Origin: Candidatus Korarchaeum sp. | GTDB taxonomy: Archaea; Korarchaeota; Korarchaeia; Korarchaeales; Korarchaeaceae | Direction: 5' to 3' | Assembly: GCA_038888615.1 (NCBI GenBank) | Contig: JAWAID010000001.1 | Coordinates: 186,001-250,000, forward strand | DNA: 64,000 bases | Shown: one piece after another, positions 23,241-40,760 of the stretch | Layout: the number at the start of each line of letters is the position of its first letter | Position numbering within the stretch: position 1 is the stretch's first letter | Made by a program: the position numbers and the translations under genes | Notes under the pieces: model-generated | What the model saw: only the letters and a program-made list of their open reading frames with translations | Databases searched by the model: none | Told to the model about the DNA's origin: nothing

Positions 23241-23634
23241 CCTCCTCCCTCACTAGCACTCCGTTCAGGATACCGTGCTGACCCGCCCTAGAGGTTATCC
23301 TCACTACACCGAGCTCCGTTCTCACCAGAGCACCCCTCGTTATCATCCCTCTCCTGCTGAGCACCTTATCAGAGGGGTTCTCGATGAACCCCACTATCCT
23401 AGCCCTCTTCGTGATCCCCCCACCCACGGCTACGTTGACCTGGTTCCCTGATACGAGTCTCAGCTTAATACCCCCTCCCCTGATCCTCACGAACTTGAGC
23501 CTTCTCTCCCCTATCGTTGTGAAAGCCGGTGGTCTTCCTGCTTCACTCTTCCTCTTACCCCTACTCACTCTTATCTTACCACCAGTGGGCTTCCTACCGC
23601 CTGGCATCACGGGACCGTGGTAGTAGTACGGCAT
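23230..23634 (-). CDS. rps8e: Ribosomal protein S8e
   Basis: This 134-residue small-subunit protein is restricted to archaea and eukaryotes. RKPTGGKIRVSRGKRKSEAGRP near the start and the later ITRGALVRTELGVVRITSR and GQHGILNGVLV are typical. The start at 23634 is preferred over the internal ATG because the family keeps a short aromatic-Gly segment ahead of KPTGG. It overlaps the 3' end of the upstream membrane-protein gene by 28 bases and is directly followed by srp19. Confidence 0.94.
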   Translation of the reverse strand: MPYYYHGPVMPGGRKPTGGKIRVSRGKRKSEAGRPPAFTTIGERRLKFVRIRGGGIKLRLVSGNQVNVAVGGGITKRARIVGFIENPSDKVLSRRGMITRGALVRTELGVVRITSRAGQHGILNGVLVREEVAS

Positions 23635-24797
23635 GCTTTACCCCTGATCGTGACATCCGGGAGCCCATTAAAAAAGTTGAGTATTAGGGAGAACACCACT
23701 GAACCGCATATCAAGGCGAGATCCAGTTGAGTCATCCCTATCTCAGCCCTTGTTATCAGGAGGGGCCATATGAGGGGATATGAGAACGCATCCCTCCCTT
23801 CCATGAACTTGCCGTGAGAGTAGCCTGAGATCAACCCCAAGAGGGCTGATAAGAGGAGCATCCCGAGGAAACCGAGATCTATTAGCATACCTACGAAGAT
23901 CGTAGGTGTTATCCCAAAGCTCTTACCGAAGATCCCCCTCCCTATTGTTTGAGATGGATGAAGGGGTACTGAGGTGAGCCAGAATGGCTCCACCGGAAGC
24001 AGCCTCAGGAACGATGAAGCCAGCTCTTTGGAGTAGTAGTAGGTGGTGCTAAGGCGGAAGAAGGGTCTCTCCAGAACCGGTACTTTGAGCTCAGTTCTAA
24101 TAACATCTACCCCCATATAAAGGAAAAATATTGATAATAAAACTAAATAAGATAATTTTTTATTCCTTTTTGAGAGGAGAAGGAACGTAGAGAGTATTAT
24201 CAGGATGGCGTCAGCCCTGAACCCGTGGAGCAGCATCAGTGTTACGCTGATGAGTGAGAATGAAGCTGGAAGCACTCTGTTACCGAGACCCAGTGACCAA
24301 TCGAGGATACTGGGGTACGATATGAAGATCAGGAACATACCGAAAGCCCCTTCGAGAGGCGTGCTGGGGGAAGATCTCAGCTCACTGATGTTGGGAACCG
24401 TCAGACGGGAGTGGATGACGAGCGCTGATCCCATGAGGAACGTGAATAGGGAATATACTGGGGTTCTCATCTCCTTGAGACGTATCAGGAGAGGTGACAC
24501 GTTCGCTACAGCCAGCCAAGCTGAGGATATGAGGAGGGAGAGGGGACCGGCTATCCTGGAGAAGGAGAAGAATACCACTAAAAACACGATGATTTCCGAA
24601 GTAATGAGAATATAGATAGGGTTTCTCTCGAGTGATTTCGATAAAAAGGATCCTGCAGTGAATGCTAACATTCCAGAGAGTGAAACTATGAACCACTCTA
24701 TCGATAAACCGAACTTCACCGCACCGGACAGTAAGATCACTGCGAGCACACCCGCTACACCTGTGGACGGGTGTATGAGGATCTCATGGAGTTTCAT
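23607..24797 (-). CDS. Polytopic membrane protein, possible polysaccharide polymerase
   Basis: This 396-residue integral membrane protein has about ten hydrophobic segments. A larger extracytoplasmic loop lies near residues 245-305 (STTYYYSKELASSFLRLLP, PLHPSQTIGRGIFGKSFG) and is followed by a final group of helices. This layout, and the Gly-rich IGRGIFGKSFGITPTI stretch, resemble Wzy-type/oligosaccharide repeat-unit polymerases, but no catalytic residue can be pinned down. It overlaps its upstream neighbour, a similar membrane protein, by 4 bases and rps8e by 28 bases, so it is translated within a run of housekeeping genes. Confidence 0.45.
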   Translation of the reverse strand: MKLHEILIHPSTGVAGVLAVILLSGAVKFGLSIEWFIVSLSGMLAFTAGSFLSKSLERNPIYILITSEIIVFLVVFFSFSRIAGPLSLLISSAWLAVANVSPLLIRLKEMRTPVYSLFTFLMGSALVIHSRLTVPNISELRSSPSTPLEGAFGMFLIFISYPSILDWSLGLGNRVLPASFSLISVTLMLLHGFRADAILIILSTFLLLSKRNKKLSYLVLLSIFFLYMGVDVIRTELKVPVLERPFFRLSTTYYYSKELASSFLRLLPVEPFWLTSVPLHPSQTIGRGIFGKSFGITPTIFVGMLIDLGFLGMLLLSALLGLISGYSHGKFMEGRDAFSYPLIWPLLITRAEIGMTQLDLALICGSVVFSLILNFFNGLPDVTIRGKACRTTTTVP

Positions 24798-26104
24798 CGT
24801 TCTCCCGGCCTCAGCGAGAAAACCACTATCAGGGCTGAGAGGATGAGGTATATGTACACATTGAGGTCCAGTATCCCGGTCTCTATGCCCACTATCGTGT
24901 AGGAGTAGATCACGGCATAAGGGCCTAGGAGAGCATCACACTTCCCCGCGAACCTATGGGAGAGAGCGAGCATATATGAGTACATTAAACTCACGCCAAG
25001 AGCTCCGATCAACCCCCAGTCTAGGAGAGGCCCCCCTATTAGGGTAGCTGTCGTCGATACATCGGTCCTCCCCATCGTATATCTACCGATCAGATTCCTA
25101 GGACCGTATCTCGGGCCGCTTATCAGCCCTAGAGAGGAGATCGCTGCTAAGTGAATGTAACCGTTCGTTACAGGCCTCATCCCGTAGATCCTAACTATAG
25201 TATCTAGGGCCGCAACTGTTATGGTGGGTCTGTAGAGCACTGAGAGGAGGGGGTTCTGAACCAACCCCGTTGCTATCGACCTGAGGGCCCCGATGCCGAG
25301 GAAAGATATTACTGCTAGGAGGAGGGCCGGTATCATGAAGCCCAGGCCGATCATCCTCCTCTTATATAGGACCAGTGTTACGGCGAGCAGATAAGCTATC
25401 ATTTCCGTCCTGAAAGCCAGGAAGAGGGAAGGTATGAATCCCAGGAGGGAGAAAGCTATAGCATCGCACTTCCTCAAGTTCGAGGATGAGAGGATGAAAG
25501 CGGCTCCGGGAACCGTGGTCCAGGAGAGGTAATTGAGGATCACGGAGAGCCTCCTCCTCACCTGTTCGTCGAGTAGGGGAATACCACCGGTGTTCGCTAG
25601 TTGAACTATGAATGAAGCGTAGCCTATCAGGAACATAGCGACGCCGAGAAGCAGCACTACTCCCCTGGCATCCCTCACTCCCAGATCCTCCTCCGCTCTC
25701 GCGAGGGCGATTCCTAGGATCATAGCGACTATTGTGAGGAGGAGGAGTAGGATTGTGTTTTCGGAGATCCTCACTAAGGAGAGCATGAAGAACGTCAAGA
25801 GCCCTATAGGAAGTGCGAAAGGTGAGAAGAGAAGTTCAAATAACCGCTTAATTACGGCATTATCCCCTCTCACCGGAGGTTTACGGAAGCTGAGTGCCCT
25901 TCCGAGTGAGCTGCATGCCCCCCTCAGTAATCTGGCAGCGCATGAGCTCTCATAGGACCGGCTCAGGATCTCATAGACCGAGTGTACGAATCTATAGGTG
26001 ATGCTACTCCTTATGAGCTCTGGGAACTTAGCTCTATTGAGTCTCCTTCCTAGGAAGGAGCTCCCGATCGATCTTATCAGCATCGATAGTAGCAATCGAG
26101 ACAC
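24794..26104 (-). CDS. Polytopic membrane protein, possible polysaccharide polymerase
   Basis: This 436-residue protein starts with about 85 soluble, basic residues and continues with roughly ten transmembrane segments. The loop containing SGPRYGPRNLIGRYTMGR and then TLIGGPLLDWGLIGALGVSL resembles oligosaccharide repeat-unit polymerases that assemble surface polysaccharide. It and the next gene have the same plan and overlap by 4 bases, so they may be diverged paralogues. Function is inferred from topology only. A 1-base gap separates it from the upstream DUF4330-like gene. Confidence 0.45.
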   Translation of the reverse strand: MSRLLLSMLIRSIGSSFLGRRLNRAKFPELIRSSITYRFVHSVYEILSRSYESSCAARLLRGACSSLGRALSFRKPPVRGDNAVIKRLFELLFSPFALPIGLLTFFMLSLVRISENTILLLLLTIVAMILGIALARAEEDLGVRDARGVVLLLGVAMFLIGYASFIVQLANTGGIPLLDEQVRRRLSVILNYLSWTTVPGAAFILSSSNLRKCDAIAFSLLGFIPSLFLAFRTEMIAYLLAVTLVLYKRRMIGLGFMIPALLLAVISFLGIGALRSIATGLVQNPLLSVLYRPTITVAALDTIVRIYGMRPVTNGYIHLAAISSLGLISGPRYGPRNLIGRYTMGRTDVSTTATLIGGPLLDWGLIGALGVSLMYSYMLALSHRFAGKCDALLGPYAVIYSYTIVGIETGILDLNVYIYLILSALIVVFSLRPGER

Positions 26105-31650: not shown

Positions 31651-33627
31651 TTGGAGGAACCTCGAGAGGCTTCCTTCACTCCGAGAGCGGTGCTCCTATC
31701 GATGGCCTTCGGTCTCCTGGTGCTATTCGGGCAGGCCGTGATAAGGGGGGCCGGTGGTTACAGCTGGACTGGGGAGGCAGCGCTCGTCGTCGTAGTATTA
31801 TCCTACGCCCTCTCAAGCTTGAGCAGGAAACCGCTATCCTTAGGCGAGATAGGCGTTATCTTCGGATCTGTGGAGGTGATCACTGTGCTCTTCATAGGAT
31901 GGCAGTACATATTGCCTTCTTGGGCCATAGCTGCTCTCGCTAAGGACTTCCCGCTGAAGCAGATACTCCCTAGCTTCCTAGTTCCGAAGGACGAAGATGC
32001 CTTAAGGAGTCTCCTACTGGCTGGTGAACTGAATTGGGGCGCCTGGGCCCTTCCCCTAGTCTACGCGATGTTATTCGCTATATCGCTTTCATTGTTCTCT
32101 TACTTCAACGTGATACCCTTGAGGAGGTTTTACATAGAGAGGGAGAGGCTCGTGTTCCCCGTGGCTACCGTGTCTGCTAGCTTCTCCAGGATAGTGAGGG
32201 ACAAGGGGAGAGAGCTCAGATTTCTATGGCTAGGCCTTCTCTCAGGCTTCACGATATCTCTCTTCCAGAAAGGGCACCTATTAGAGACTATATGGGAGGA
32301 ATTCCCAGCTGCTGATCTCAGGTTCGACTTAACACCTCAACTTCAGGGCTCCTTCCCTGGAGGAGCTTTCGGGATGGATAGCGCGACTCAGATAACTCCT
32401 GATCTGATTGCTTGGTCCTTCTTGATACCCTTGGGAATACAGGTATCTATATGGGTGACCGCTGTAGTCGCTTATCTACTGATACCACCCGTGCTAGTTA
32501 GGATGGGTCTACTCCCCTACGAGGAAGGCCACGATTTCTCTTTTTACGTCTCAAACTCCGCTTTGAACGGCCCGATACCTTGGTACCATTTGAGCACAGG
32601 TCTTTACGTCGCTGTAGGCCTCATTCCCATCTTGCTAGGGAGCAAGTACATAATCGGGAACCTCAGGGAGTGGAGAGATGAACCCCTGGCCAGGAAGTGG
32701 GTCCTGGTGGGTTGGATCCTCACCCTCATCACCAGTGTTCTGCTCCTATCCTCTTTAGGGATGAGTCCCGTCATAGCGCTAGCGATACTGGCTTTGCAGC
32801 TGATCTACTGGCAGGGTTACATATGGACCCTCGGTATGGGTAATTGGATAATACCCATCAACTTGGGTGTGAGGGGGATCATAGACAGCGTCTTCCTCTC
32901 GTCCGGAGCCTTCAGTAGAGCGTCATCTGATGCCTTCTTCTCAGGTGCAGCGAATGCCATGATAACTGATTCCATATCGGCTCAGCCGACAGCCTCAGCA
33001 GAGGGGTTCAAGTTCTCATCTGATACCGGAATGAGAGCAAGGACTATGTTCAAAGCTCAAGTTCTCGGGATGCTCTTCGGGGTCATGGTAGGTGGTTTGC
33101 TGCTCCTCATCTCCTTCCATACCTGGGGGGCTGCTAAGAAGCCCCTTGAGATGGCGGAAACTACCTACCCTGAGGAAGGGCTCTTAACCGTGATGGGGCA
33201 GTTGATGGGCTGGAGACTTGATTACTTCCTGGAGGGGTTTTCTGTAGGTGCTCTGGCCTTCTTGATAAGGGGTCTCTTCCCGGTGTTTGGGATAAGTGCG
33301 ATAGGCATACTCCTAGGCCTTCTTCTCCCACAATACGCAGCCCTCTACATGATGACCAGCCTCCTCAGGTACCTCGCCGAGAGGTACGGAGGGAGCGGGT
33401 TCATGCGCACGAGAGCGCTACCCTTCCTCGCCGGCTTCGCGGTGGGCGGTGTCCTAAACGCGATAGGTACTAGTGTAGTCCTGATCGTCAAGTCCAGCCC
33501 CCTATCTCCTATTTCTGGAGTATTAGGCTTCCTGATAATACTAGGAGTAATGCTCCCAGTTGTGAGGTCTTATGCGAAATCCGGGAGGGTTCCAGGTGAA
33601 CCTGATATTCACACCCCTGGGGGTTAG
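31651..33627 (+). CDS. Oligopeptide-transporter-like (OPT-type) membrane protein
   Basis: This 658-residue polytopic protein has about 14-16 hydrophobic segments. FNVIPLRRFYIERERLVFPVATVSA and GFMRTRALPFLAGFAVGG are typical of the archaeal DUF6784/DUF6785 membrane proteins, which resemble the OPT oligopeptide/metal-chelate transporters. Substrate is unknown. The start is TTG 31651 with GGTGG ahead. It is 13 bases behind the GAPDH-like gene and overlaps the following phosphohexomutase gene by 32 bases, so pgk, the GAPDH-like gene, this gene and glmM may be one operon. Confidence 0.6.
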   Translation: MEEPREASFTPRAVLLSMAFGLLVLFGQAVIRGAGGYSWTGEAALVVVVLSYALSSLSRKPLSLGEIGVIFGSVEVITVLFIGWQYILPSWAIAALAKDFPLKQILPSFLVPKDEDALRSLLLAGELNWGAWALPLVYAMLFAISLSLFSYFNVIPLRRFYIERERLVFPVATVSASFSRIVRDKGRELRFLWLGLLSGFTISLFQKGHLLETIWEEFPAADLRFDLTPQLQGSFPGGAFGMDSATQITPDLIAWSFLIPLGIQVSIWVTAVVAYLLIPPVLVRMGLLPYEEGHDFSFYVSNSALNGPIPWYHLSTGLYVAVGLIPILLGSKYIIGNLREWRDEPLARKWVLVGWILTLITSVLLLSSLGMSPVIALAILALQLIYWQGYIWTLGMGNWIIPINLGVRGIIDSVFLSSGAFSRASSDAFFSGAANAMITDSISAQPTASAEGFKFSSDTGMRARTMFKAQVLGMLFGVMVGGLLLLISFHTWGAAKKPLEMAETTYPEEGLLTVMGQLMGWRLDYFLEGFSVGALAFLIRGLFPVFGISAIGILLGLLLPQYAALYMMTSLLRYLAERYGGSGFMRTRALPFLAGFAVGGVLNAIGTSVVLIVKSSPLSPISGVLGFLIILGVMLPVVRSYAKSGRVPGEPDIHTPGG

Positions 33628-35729: not shown

Positions 35730-37001
35730 ATGATGCCTGAGAAGGAGCACGTGAACCTGATATTCGTAGGCCACGTGGATCACGGGAAATCCACACTAAT
35801 CGGGAGGCTCTTCTACGATCTTAAGTTAGTAGAGGAGCTCCCTCCTGAGGAACTAGCTGCTGACGCAAGATTCGCGTGGGTCGTGGATAGACTCAAGGAG
35901 GAACGAGAGAGGGGAATGACAATAGACCTATTCCACACCAAGGTGGAGACCCCTCATAAGATGATCACTGTAATAGATGCCCCCGGGCACAGGGACTTCG
36001 TTAAGAACATGATAACCGGCGCTAGCCAAGCTGACGCCGCGATACTGGTGGTCTCGGCGAAGTCCGGAGAGGGAGTTCAGGCTCAAACGATAGAGCACGT
36101 CTTCCTGATAAAGACCCTCGGAGTTAATCAGCTAGCTGTCGCCATAAACAAGATGGATGACCCAACTGTAGGGTACAAGAAGGAGAGGTATGAGGAGCTG
36201 AAAACTCAGGTCTCAGACCTCCTGAAGAGAGTAGGCTACGATCCCTCTAAGATCCACTTCATACCGACGAGCGGTCTCCAGGGAGATAACGTAGCTAGTA
36301 GGAGCAACAATATGCCTTGGTACAATGGGCCCACGCTCTACGAGGTCCTTGATACCTTCTCAGCACCACCCAAGCCGATAGACAAGCCCCTGAGGATACC
36401 CATACAGGATGTGTTCTCCATAACTGGTGTCGGTACCGTGATCGTCGGCAGGGTGGAGACCGGAGTCCTTAAGCCGGGGGATACTATAGTGATAGAGCCT
36501 CTGGGTAAGACGGCTGAGGTTAAGAGCATCGAGATGCACCACGAGAGGCTTGATAAAGCTGAACCAGGGGACAACATAGGGATAAACATAAAGGGGATAG
36601 ATAAGAAGGAGATAAAGAGAGGGGATGTCATAGGACACCCGAACAATCCACCGACAGTAGTTAAGGAGTTTACCGCTCAAATAGTCGTCCTCCAGCACCC
36701 GACAGCGATAGCTCCTGGTTACACACCGGTAATTCACGCTCACACCGGCCACATGGCCTGCAAGATGGTTTCCATAGAGAAGAAGATAGACCCCAGGAGC
36801 GGCCAGGTTCTGGAGGAGAAACCGAGTTTCATAAGGAGAGGGGATGCTGCTATAGTGAAGTTTGAGCCTCTTAAGCCCTTCGTCATCGAGAAGTACAGCG
36901 AGTTCCCGCAGCTTGGGAGATTCGCGGTTAGAGATATGGGGATAACTGTAGCTGCAGGCATAGTGCTAGACGTGGTCCCCTTAGAGAGGAAGAAGAAGTG
37001 A
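35730..37001 (+). CDS. tuf: Translation elongation factor 1-alpha (aEF1A)
   Basis: This 423-residue GTPase delivers aminoacyl-tRNA to the ribosome. All GTPase motifs are complete: GHVDHGKST (G1), RGMTIDLF (G2), DAPGHRDF (G3), NKMD (G4) and SGLQG (G5). Domains 2 and 3 follow and the C-terminus is basic (LERKKK). Two ATGs, 35730 and 35733, can start it. S10 follows 43 bases downstream on the same strand, a conserved archaeal pairing, though a T-rich stretch and TATA-like box between them may give S10 its own promoter. Confidence 0.97.
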
Positions 37002-37044: not shown

Positions 37045-37356
37045 ATGACGGAGGTGTTGAGGATAGAGCTCGTCAGCACGAACCCAGAGAGCTTAGAGAG
37101 GGTCAGCAAGATGTTCAAGGATATAGCTGAGAAGATGGGGGTGAGGGTGAAGGGACCCATACCTTTGCCGACTAAGAGATTGAAGGTGACCGCTTTGAGG
37201 AACCCCTCTGGGGAGGGGACGAATAGGTACGACAAATATGAATTGAGGATTCACAAGAGGATCCTAGACATCCCAAATCCTGATGAGAGGTACATAAGGA
37301 GCATAATGGGGATCTCCCTTCCGGAGGACGTGAAGATAAGCATAGTGCTCATGTGA
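37045..37356 (+). CDS. rps10: Ribosomal protein S10 (uS10)
   Basis: This 103-residue small-subunit protein has the diagnostic GPIPLPTKRLKVT and YELRIHKRILDI stretches. GAGGGTGG lies 4 bases ahead of ATG 37045, and AATTTTTATT at 37012-37021 could be a TATA box for a short leader or the terminator of EF-1alpha. It is separated from S7 by about 24 kb, unlike the compact str-type cluster of many archaea. Confidence 0.96.
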   Translation: MTEVLRIELVSTNPESLERVSKMFKDIAEKMGVRVKGPIPLPTKRLKVTALRNPSGEGTNRYDKYELRIHKRILDIPNPDERYIRSIMGISLPEDVKISIVLM

Positions 37357-37405
37357 AGCTCCCTATTGACGCTATCCCGCCTTTGTTAAGTCCCAGTGAT
37401 GCTTG

Positions 37406-38470
37406 ATGAAGGTCCTTATATTGGCTGATGACTTGACGGGAGCCCTTGACACCACGTGTAAGTTCGGTAGGAATTCGATCGTCCTCCTCTCGGGGGAGGG
37501 TGATGCCGATTTCGTCGGAATCACCACAGATAGTAGGTTGCTGAAGCATGAGGAGGCCGTGTCACGTGTTAGGGAGACCCTGCTGAAGTTTCCATCTTGG
37601 CAGTACCTATATAAGAAGGCGGACTCCACCATGAGGGGAAACGTGGGAGCCGAGCTCGGTGAGATATGTAGGCTGCTTAACGCCAAGGTTCCCTTCACAC
37701 CGGCCTACCCGGAGCAGGGAAGGATCGTGGTAGATGGGAGGCTCTACGTTCGGGGGAAACGGCTTGAGGAGACCCCTTACGTCAGTGAACTCCCTATAAG
37801 ATCCTCCAGTATTCTGGAGATCTTGAGGGCGACTACTAGCTTGAGGGTTGGGTATTGGGGAGGAGATCACGACATAATCACGTTCAGGAACGTCAGAAGT
37901 AGGCGAGACCTCTCCGAGGCCATTAAGCAAATCCTTGAGAACGGGTTCAAGGTGATGGGAGGAAGTGCTGGTCTCGCGATGGAGCTCTCCCGAATCCTAG
38001 GATGCGAGAGAGGTGAGGAAATCATAGCGAAAGGTCCGCTACTCTTCCTCTCCGGATCGGAGAACGAGGTGACCAAGAGGCAGTTCTCACTCCTAGCTAA
38101 GGAAGTACCGGTTGTTGGTCACTCTGATGAGGAGATCAAGCTAGTTGGGGAGATGTTGAAGAGTGGAAAGGACGTTGCTATTTCGTTTAACCTAAGGGAG
38201 GTCCTCAAGGACATCGCCAGAATTGCGGAAGTCATCGTGGAATCGAAACCAGGCGCCCTCGTGGTGGTGGGTGGCGAGACCCTGAGGGTTCTACTAAAGC
38301 ACCTTGAAGCCTCGGCCATAAGGGTGGGTGACTGTCCTGAGGAGGGGGTGGCCGCTGGCTGGATATTGGGTGGTCCACTGGACGGAACTCCGTTGGTGTC
38401 GAAAGCTGGGGGATTCGGGAATCCTAGGACCTTGCTGAGGATCCTAAATTTCCTGAGAACTCGACGTTAG
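37406..38470 (+). CDS. Four-carbon acid sugar kinase family protein (DUF1537)
   Basis: This kinase of about 354 residues is related to OtnK/DtnK, which phosphorylate threonate or erythronate at C4. The N-terminal LILADDLTGALDT and KKADSTMRGNVG line the substrate site. The C-terminal domain has VVGGETLRVLL and GWILGGPLDGTPLVSKAGGFG, the nucleotide-binding blocks. It is shorter than the usual 420-440 residues. It leads an operon with a PdxA2-type dehydrogenase and a LarA-family enzyme, spaced 13 and 4 bases apart, so the three probably act on one substrate series. Confidence 0.82.
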   Translation: MKVLILADDLTGALDTTCKFGRNSIVLLSGEGDADFVGITTDSRLLKHEEAVSRVRETLLKFPSWQYLYKKADSTMRGNVGAELGEICRLLNAKVPFTPAYPEQGRIVVDGRLYVRGKRLEETPYVSELPIRSSSILEILRATTSLRVGYWGGDHDIITFRNVRSRRDLSEAIKQILENGFKVMGGSAGLAMELSRILGCERGEEIIAKGPLLFLSGSENEVTKRQFSLLAKEVPVVGHSDEEIKLVGEMLKSGKDVAISFNLREVLKDIARIAEVIVESKPGALVVVGGETLRVLLKHLEASAIRVGDCPEEGVAAGWILGGPLDGTPLVSKAGGFGNPRTLLRILNFLRTRR

Positions 38471-38483
38471 GAGGTGTTCTCGA

Positions 38484-39425
38484 GTGATACTGATCACGGT
38501 AGGGGATCCCGGAGGAGTGGGTCCTGAGGTCACAGTGAAGGCCCTCAGGAGGGTCAAATATCCGGTTACGGTGATAGGGAGCATTGGGATCCTAAAGAGA
38601 GCCCGTGATGTCTGTGGAATCGACATGGAATTCACTTCCGTTGATGAACCGGTGGAGTTGAGTGACTCAATCCCGGTCATAGATTTAGGGGGCTCAGAGA
38701 CCTACCAGGCTAGGCCAACGCCGGAGGGAGGGCTCTTCTCTTACCTCTGCATAAAGAGGGCCTCTGATATCATCCTAGGGGGGAAGGCCGACGCTCTGGT
38801 GACGGGACCCGTCAGTAAGGAAGCGATTAATCTAGCCGGCATACCTTTCAGGGGACATACGGAGCTATTAGCCGAGCTCGCGGGTGTGAGAAGGACCAAG
38901 ATGCTGCTCTACCTGGATGAGCTGAGAGTGTCTCATGTCACCACGCATGTGTCCCTGAGGGAGGTCCCAAGCTTGATCTCAGAGGAGGAGATAGTGTTCA
39001 CCACGGAGCAGACCTTCTCCTTCCTGAGGAAACTCGGAGAACGTGGAAAGGTCGGTATAGCTTCCCTGAACCCTCATGCGGGTGAGGGCGGACTGTTCGG
39101 GAGTGAGGAAATCTCCGTGATAGGACCGGCTATTAGAAGGCTCAGGGAGTTGGGTTACGATGTCGAGGGGCCAATCCCGGCCGATACCATATTCCTAAGG
39201 GCATTGAGGGGGGAGTTCCGCGCGATCGTGGCCATGTATCATGACCAGGGGCATATCCCCGTGAAGCTATTGGGTTTTAACAGGGCCGTTAACGTGACTC
39301 TCGGGCTGCCCTATGTCAGGACCTCGGTGGATCACGGTACCGCTTACGACATAGCTGGTAGCTGCTCAGCCGATGAGGGTAGCATGGTAAACGCTATAAG
39401 CTTGGCCCATAGGTTATCTAGGTAG
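38484..39425 (+). CDS. pdxA: PdxA2-type 4-phospho-threonate/erythronate dehydrogenase
   Basis: This 313-residue PdxA-family metal-dependent NAD dehydrogenase decarboxylates its 3-oxo product. Signature residues are in VGDPGGVGPEV, GPVSKEAIN, FRGHTELLAEL, LNPHAGEGGLFG, MYHDQGHIPVKLLG and SVDHGTAYDIAG; the three metal-binding His are kept. Next to a DUF1537 kinase it is more likely a PdxA2 acting on 4-phosphothreonate or 4-phosphoerythronate, giving dihydroxyacetone phosphate and CO2, than the vitamin B6 enzyme. No other pyridoxine genes are nearby. The start is GTG 38484. Confidence 0.85.
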   Translation: MILITVGDPGGVGPEVTVKALRRVKYPVTVIGSIGILKRARDVCGIDMEFTSVDEPVELSDSIPVIDLGGSETYQARPTPEGGLFSYLCIKRASDIILGGKADALVTGPVSKEAINLAGIPFRGHTELLAELAGVRRTKMLLYLDELRVSHVTTHVSLREVPSLISEEEIVFTTEQTFSFLRKLGERGKVGIASLNPHAGEGGLFGSEEISVIGPAIRRLRELGYDVEGPIPADTIFLRALRGEFRAIVAMYHDQGHIPVKLLGFNRAVNVTLGLPYVRTSVDHGTAYDIAGSCSADEGSMVNAISLAHRLSR

Positions 39426-39429
39426 GGAC

Positions 39430-40692
39430 ATGCCCGAGTTTTCCCTGCCTTACGGGAGCTCTGAAGTTCGCTTCAACCTACCGAGCAATTTGAAGGTATA
39501 TCTAATAGAACCAAGGGAGGTTAAGCCCTTAGAAGATCTAGAAAGTGAACTCAGGAACTCTATCAGGAATCTATCCGATATAGTGAAGCCAGGGAGGAGG
39601 GTAGCGGTGGTAGCTGACGATATAACTAGACCAACACCTACTGCACGTGTGCTCCCCATCCTCCTGGACCAACTGAACGATCTCGGGATAAGGGATGAGC
39701 TGATATCTCTTGTAGTCGCTTTAGGGACCCACAGGCCGATGACACAACCCGAACTCGAGTTGAAGTACGGGGAGGCTGTTGAGAGAATCGAGGTAATTCA
39801 GCCGGACTTCAGGGATCCTGAGAAGCAGGTGAAGATCGGTTTAATGCCGAGCGGTGCTCCGATAGAGGTAACTAGGGAACTTTCCAAGGTGGATCTCTCC
39901 ATAGGCATCGGTTGCGTCACACCTCATCACGTCTCGGGTTTCTCCGGAGGCTCCAAGATAATACTGCCGGGTGTTTCAGGGGAGAGAACCGTCGGGGAAA
40001 TGCACCTGATGAGCGCGAGGTTAAGGAGATCCTTCTTGGGTATTGAGAGAAATGAAGTTAGGGATCTCATGGATTTAGTTGCTGAGAAGGCTTATTTGAG
40101 GGGGTTGATCGATCTAGTTGTCGATGGTGTGGGAAGGCCTACGTGGATCGGGTGCGGAGAGTTCAAGGATGTCTTCAGGGAGGCCGTAGTGGAGTCCAGG
40201 AAGGTTTACGAGGTTGATGCCCCAAAGGAGCTAGATCTCGTCATAACAACGAGTTATCCCGCTGATATCGATTTCTGGCAGGCGCACAAAGCGCTATATC
40301 CTGCCGATATGGTGCTCAGGGAGGGAGGTACGCTCATACTCGCGACACCCTGTCCAGAAGGAGTTTCCAAGACGCATCCCGATGTGATAGAGCTGGCCGG
40401 ATTGTCTCCAGAGGAGATAGATAGAAGGATTGAGGCCAAAATCGTTAAAGACCTGATAGGTGCTGCTAATTCAATGGTATGGTCGAAGATAAGGTCTAGG
40501 ATAAGGGTCGTGATAGTCTCGGACGGTTTAGATGAGTGGGAAGTTAGATCCATGGGTTTCGAGTGGTACGGGGACCTCGAGGAAGCTATAAATAAGGAGT
40601 TAGCGAGATTCCATGAAAAGCCGAGAGTTGGTGTGATGAAAAACTCCCCGGAGCTATTGCCAAGGGTGAATTACGCCGGGGGAGGGATTTGA
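39430..40692 (+). CDS. larA: LarA-family nickel-pincer racemase/epimerase homologue
   Basis: This 420-residue protein belongs to the lactate racemase LarA (DUF2088) family, which carries a nickel pincer nucleotide tethered to Lys. DDITRPTP (about 63-70), GTHRPMTQPEL with H101, HHVSGFSGGSKIILPG with H166/H167 and K176, and H192 match the spacing of the catalytic and cofactor residues of Lactiplantibacillus LarA. It follows pdxA by 4 bases. In this operon a 2-hydroxyacid epimerase for threonate/erythronate is a better guess than lactate racemase. Its last six codons and stop lie antisense to the tRNA-Ser gene. The cofactor-making LarB, LarC and LarE are not in the window. Confidence 0.85.
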   Translation: MPEFSLPYGSSEVRFNLPSNLKVYLIEPREVKPLEDLESELRNSIRNLSDIVKPGRRVAVVADDITRPTPTARVLPILLDQLNDLGIRDELISLVVALGTHRPMTQPELELKYGEAVERIEVIQPDFRDPEKQVKIGLMPSGAPIEVTRELSKVDLSIGIGCVTPHHVSGFSGGSKIILPGVSGERTVGEMHLMSARLRRSFLGIERNEVRDLMDLVAEKAYLRGLIDLVVDGVGRPTWIGCGEFKDVFREAVVESRKVYEVDAPKELDLVITTSYPADIDFWQAHKALYPADMVLREGGTLILATPCPEGVSKTHPDVIELAGLSPEEIDRRIEAKIVKDLIGAANSMVWSKIRSRIRVVIVSDGLDEWEVRSMGFEWYGDLEEAINKELARFHEKPRVGVMKNSPELLPRVNYAGGGI

Positions 40693-40760
40693 ACCCTCGT
40701 GGCCCGGAGGGCCACCCGCTCTCAAGGCGGGCACCTTGGTCCTGGCTCGGCCACCCCGGC
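40674..40760 (-). tRNA. tRNA-Ser (anticodon UGA)
   Basis: Read on the minus strand this folds as an 87-base class II tRNA including discriminator G. The acceptor stem is GCCGGGG/CCCCGGC, the anticodon stem-loop is CCCGC-CTTGAGA-GCGGG with anticodon TGA, the long variable arm is GTGGCCC-TCCG-GGGCCAC, and the T arm is GAGGG-TTCAAAT-CCCTC. G73 is the serine identity base. CCA is not encoded. No intron is present. Its 3' end overlaps the end of larA on the other strand. Confidence 0.95.

Follow-up and report, generated by a model that had tools for sequence, protein, structure and literature searches.

A cluster of three genes in Candidatus Korarchaeum sp. encodes a DUF1537 kinase, a PdxA2-type dehydrogenase and a homologue of the nickel-pincer enzyme LarA, and is conserved among the congeners of this archaeon (Table 1). 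There is firm evidence for the operon and for its conservation. The proposal that the trio handles a four-carbon acid sugar, with C2 epimerisation by LarA, phosphorylation by the DUF1537 kinase and a PdxA2 step to dihydroxyacetone phosphate, is more tentative and falls a little short of being probable; a nickel-dependent C2-epimerase is nevertheless the best available reading of the LarA homologue, though not a proven one. The most surprising part for specialists is likely to be the contrast between LarA genes that are constrained and genes for the nickel-pincer cofactor (NPN) that are missing from the same genome.

Table 1. The three-gene cluster and its flanking features (positions in the 64,000-nucleotide window)
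Feature	Position	Strand	Remarks
EF1A	35730..37001	+	Upstream context, outside the pathway
Ribosomal protein S10	37045..37356	+	Upstream context, outside the pathway; 49 bases 5' of the DUF1537 ATG
DUF1537 (four-carbon acid sugar kinase) gene	37406..38470	+	354-355 aa; assigned by Pfam, PDB and motifs
PdxA2-type dehydrogenase gene (D-threonate 4-phosphate dehydrogenase-like)	38484..39425	+	Assigned by Pfam, PDB and motif
LarA homologue gene (putative nickel-pincer-dependent 2-hydroxyacid epimerase)	39430..40692	+	Assigned by Pfam, residues and tree
tRNA-Ser(TGA)	40674..40760	-	Opposite in strand to the LarA gene and overlapping its final 19 bases; end of the cluster

The window is the whole 64,000-nucleotide stretch that was analysed, and belongs to an archaeal genome of 1.67 Mb in two contigs that is 99.85% complete (here G000). 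All three open reading frames were recovered where the original prediction had placed them, and their Pfam families were all assigned with scores above cut-off. They lie on one strand, with 13 bases between the DUF1537 and PdxA genes and only 4 between PdxA and LarA. The ATG that starts the DUF1537 gene is preceded by a TTG at 37403, and co-transcription of the trio with S10 is possible. The cluster contains no acid-sugar transporter. Elsewhere in the window, a gene at 31651-33627 (+) encodes a large membrane protein that matches DUF6785 and, weakly, the OPT oligopeptide transporters; it overlaps the start of a phosphoglucomutase/phosphomannomutase gene. Two neighbouring matches to PF01901 (putative O-antigen polymerase) are found at 23607-26104 (-), beside a chaperonin gene.

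The comparison drew on 26 class genomes and 29 phylum genomes. Every congener with a contig that spans the locus (G007, G006, G017, G013, G012, G015 and G019) keeps the order EF1A-S10-DUF1537-PdxA-LarA, and in these an open reading frame resembling protein S19 converges on the trio from the other side. Portions of the same order are seen at contig ends in G020, G011 and G008. Since the DUF1537-PdxA-LarA order recurs in relatives of divergent sequence, it is not due to chance. In G026, from another family of the phylum, the three genes are again on one strand but are arranged as LarA-DUF1537-PdxA at a different location, with 40% identity for LarA and 47% for PdxA. That the trio occurs in two different arrangements favours a functional link over simple persistence next to ribosomal genes. 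The lack of conserved linkage in relatives that the original prediction named as refuting it is not what is seen, the trio being conserved in the congeners and rearranged in G026. PdxA was detected in 11 of the 29 phylum genomes, always together with an operon-type LarA, and was not detected in the other 18; the LarA of G008 is a C-terminal fragment at a contig end, so that its PdxA cannot be judged.

Two further observations concern the LarA genes of these relatives. The operonic LarA of G019 (L046:5263-6500) is broken at about residue 337 into two reading frames, through sequencing error or decay, and G026 carries four LarA homologues, on contigs C29, C87, C2 and C97. The linkage was not found in the bacterial neighbourhoods that were read: LarA matches on plasmids had neither DUF1537 nor PdxA alongside in the five neighbourhoods examined, and neither was present among the open reading frames around the LarA of Adiutrix (36% identity, L053). 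No open paper was found that joins DUF1537, PdxA and LarA, or LarA and Korarchaeum.

The kinase has both domains of the DUF1537 four-carbon acid sugar kinases above cut-off (Pfam SBD_N, E 2.5e-29; NBD_C, E 1.2e-11) and keeps their motifs ADDLTGAxD, KKxDSTMRGN, GGET and KAGGFG. Its best structure matches are to D-threonate kinase (4xfm/4xgj), and the D-threonate kinase equivalog NF047819 is its best NCBIfam model, yet the score of 138 bits is well below the cut-off of 450, and the protein is some 65-75 aa shorter than the bacterial D-threonate kinases. On these comparisons the family-level assignment holds, while specificity for D-threonate is not established. The dehydrogenase carries a PdxA domain (Pfam E 3.9e-96), and its identification as the PdxA2 kind agrees with its best PDB matches, Salmonella PdxA2 (2hi1, 260 bits) and D-threonate-4-phosphate dehydrogenase (6e85, 259 bits). 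E. coli PdxA, of the B6 pathway, scores about 204 bits, placing the protein some 56 bits nearer to PdxA2, and it has the motif YHDQGHIPxKLLGF in common with PdxA2.

The LarA homologue matches both Pfam domains of its superfamily (Lar_N, E 5.7e-51; LarA_C, E 4.4e-09). Alignment to LarA1 bears out the prediction that the His and Lys residues of the nickel-pincer site are kept, since all cofactor and catalytic residues (R75, H108, H174, K184, H200, Q295 and K298 in LarA1 numbering) are present in the full-length operonic LarAs. The substrate pocket is more particular. Positions 175/176/358/359 are H/V/A/N, invariant in the congeners that have those residues, although the linked LarA of G026 has H/I/S/L, so that the linked LarAs do not all have one and the same pocket. 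Positions 358/359 of malate racemases hold H or Q and then K; over the four positions, lactate racemases have F/F/W/E-Q and D-gluconate epimerases have E/V/A/H (PMC11770544). Judged by these signatures, the operonic LarA does not have a lactate- or malate-racemase pocket. The malate racemases (Mar1/Mar2 and LarAH5/6) are its closest characterised relatives by whole sequence (best Mar2, PDB 6d6z, E 1.7e-42) and share its cofactor and catalytic residues, but it has A/N in place of the H-Q/K pair of LarAH5/6 and scores 272 bits with the NCBIfam malate racemase model, under the cut-off of 500. The D-gluconate 2-epimerases (GntE) perform the C2 epimerisation of a sugar acid that is proposed here, and V176 and A358 are in common with them, which is suggestive only. 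The other two of the four positions, H175 and N359, are E and H in GntE; the hexonate epimerase model gives 80 bits, and the predicted substrate has four carbons.

A second LarA of G000 is encoded on contig C2 (C2:387220-388443; L008:9212-10441). Its pocket, Y/F/H/K, has the malate-racemase signature, so that it is probably a malate racemase, whereas by the same signatures (PMC11770544) the operonic protein would not be one. In a tree, the congener LarAs group with those of G026 and Adiutrix (local support 0.78), apart from the malate-type paralogues.

D-Erythronate and D-threonate differ solely at C2, the carbon inverted by LarA enzymes. In the proposed pathway, LarA would interconvert the two acids, the DUF1537 kinase would phosphorylate D-threonate at O4, and the PdxA2-type enzyme would carry out an NAD-dependent oxidation at C3 with loss of CO2, yielding dihydroxyacetone phosphate. 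The epimerase would thereby open the D-threonate branch to D-erythronate, without the dehydrogenase and isomerase of known bacteria. We infer the substrate, its stereochemistry, the direction, epimerisation before phosphorylation and the loading of LarA with NPN. The proposed epimerisation has chemical precedent, since LarA relatives epimerise 4-deoxythreonate/4-deoxyerythronate at C2 (PMC11770544).

The nearest known system is the bacterial D-threonate pathway, for which a DUF1537 D-threonate kinase and PdxA2 are described in the accounts given by later papers (Zhang et al. 2016, via PMC9997740/PMC7954711). The korarchaeal cluster has the same kinase and PdxA2-type families, adjacent to each other, with the same predicted product; it differs in being archaeal, in the addition of a LarA homologue and in having no C2 dehydrogenase or isomerase alongside. 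The L-threonate and D-erythronate pathways (LtnD or DenD, OtnI, OtnK, OtnC; PMC12540250, PMC10580937) also use a DUF1537 kinase and lead to dihydroxyacetone phosphate. However, these start with C2 oxidation, by LtnD in the known bacterial L-threonate routes (PMC12540250), in place of the C2 inversion proposed here, and no such genes are nearby. The original prediction that the usual oxidation and isomerisation genes are absent stands for the neighbourhood of the trio only.

The cofactor genes present the main difficulty. Across the G000 genome there are no candidates for LarC, nothing over threshold for LarB and only weak sub-threshold matches for LarE (best 38 bits, cut-off 150). This is not a lack of sensitivity, because the same models find the genes in relatives: among the 26 class genomes, LarC in 9, LarE above cut-off in 11 and LarB in 10 (two partial). 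LarBCE genes are present in G006, G010, G011, G012, G014, G015, G018, G005 and G001; G013 has LarE and, where a contig ends, part of a LarB, and in G019 LarE is the sole NPN gene detected. G007, which is 96% complete, yielded none of these genes, and neither did G003 or G004, each with a single malate-type LarA. They were also not found in G020, G017 and G008, but this is weak evidence because these genomes are only 63-86% complete. The genome-wide loss of cofactor synthesis that the original prediction named as refuting it is thus what is seen in G000, though several relatives have the genes. Nickel dependence accordingly fits relatives such as G006, which has both the operon and LarBCE, and is unproven in G000. 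Similarly, C2 inversion of a four-carbon acid by LarA draws support from the linkage, the conserved residues and the non-lactate, non-malate pocket, and is weakened by the missing genes.

In G006, LarB-LarC-LarE lie directly upstream of an ABC-UbiD-UbiA-phosphoesterase-DMT block. The ABC-UbiD-UbiA block is syntenic in G000, in mid-contig, without LarBCE. At the corresponding position, G000 has an ECF transporter (EcfT, a riboflavin-family S component and a double EcfA; L096:10284-13501, contig C2), which is also upstream of the block in G020. As a dedicated NPN importer this transporter was rejected, since G006 has close orthologues of it in addition to LarBCE, and G009 and G023 have them although they lack LarA. 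The block's ABC transporter is not favoured for this role either, as the UbiD of the block is missing from G007, where LarA is present and LarBCE went undetected. The LarBCE genes themselves come in two forms, about 40-45% identical (L064:5375-8133 versus L067 and L071), one arranged as a single block in G006 and G010 and the other with LarE set apart in G012 and G015; separate acquisition of the two forms is possible. Genomes with larBCE but without larA have been described (PMC11796402), while no discussion of the reverse case, larA without larBCE, was found in the literature examined.

Selection on the LarA genes was estimated by pairwise dN/dS (NG86). Between G000 and either G020 or G007, genomes in which NPN genes were not detected, the operonic LarA gives about 0.09-0.10 and the malate-type paralogue 0.06-0.09, the G007 values being rough because dS is near or above 1. 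The operonic LarAs of G012, G013 and G015 give 0.07-0.10 among themselves, G012 and G015 being genomes with LarB, LarC and LarE. A pairwise value is an average since divergence, in which constraint after a very recent loss of LarBCE in each lineage would be invisible; it is simpler, though, to read the absence in G000 and G007 as a shared loss than as recent separate losses. Both LarAs of G000 thus seem to be under normal purifying constraint without detected NPN genes, which implies that the cofactor is scavenged, that it is made in another way, or that LarA works without NPN.

The last of these possibilities would make the operonic LarA an apoprotein with another role, an enzyme with another cofactor or a gene on the way to loss. 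The lack of LarB, LarC and LarE in G000 and their non-detection in G007 would be explained directly, and the split LarA of G019, where only LarE was detected, would fit as well. However, G000 and G007 both retain every residue for NPN binding and catalysis, the cofactor lysine among them, and dN/dS there is close to that among G012, G013 and G015, making such a change of function unlikely. It is slightly easier to imagine, though still improbable, that LarA retains its chemistry but acts on some other 2-hydroxyacid (malate-like, tartrate-like or glycerate, for example) and shares no pathway with the kinase and PdxA. Its kinship with the malate racemases favours this, as does the caution that the activity of a LarA cannot always be read from its genomic context (PMC7583248); the linkage in two arrangements, the complete co-occurrence with PdxA and the separate malate-signature LarA in G000 all weigh against it.

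Other readings keep the enzymes and change the metabolite. 4-Phospho-D-erythronate is a side product of erythrose-4-phosphate oxidation and inhibits sugar-phosphate enzymes. LarA could act in repair at the phosphate level, turning this compound into 4-phospho-D-threonate for conversion by PdxA2 to dihydroxyacetone phosphate, with the kinase recycling the dephosphorylated acid. The same enzyme set would serve, the lack of an uptake gene in the cluster would be natural, and the housekeeping setting beside EF1A-S10 would be appropriate. However, we know of no LarA homologue that acts on a phosphorylated acid, and there is only a small chance that repair is the function. Inhibition by the metabolite 4-phosphoerythronate is treated in PMC7954711. 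A role for the kinase and PdxA in vitamin B6 synthesis, taking 4-hydroxythreonine to its phosphate and on, with LarA as a passenger, is the most improbable of these alternatives. Members of the DUF1537 family are able to phosphorylate 4-hydroxythreonine (PMC7954711) and PdxA2 is able to perform the PdxA reaction (PMC9997740), but the PdxA2-type motif, the best match to D-threonate 4-phosphate dehydrogenase and the many phylum genomes (18/29) without detected PdxA all point away from it.

Epimerisation of a four-carbon acid by an NPN-carrying LarA thus remains the preferred reading, and G000 would then need to obtain the cofactor externally or through a route yet to be recognised. It is a doubtful but conceivable extension that some Korarchaeia combine a LarA-based C2-epimerase pathway for four-carbon acid sugars with no NPN synthesis of their own, NPN being a nutrient traded in the community (or the product of an undiscovered route). 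If the operon works as proposed, it would let one epimer of a four-carbon acid sugar enter a known route in a redox-free way, and would supply an uncharacterised group of LarA enzymes with a natural substrate. The conservation of LarA in genomes without LarB, LarC and LarE makes NPN uptake or alternative synthesis a testable question.
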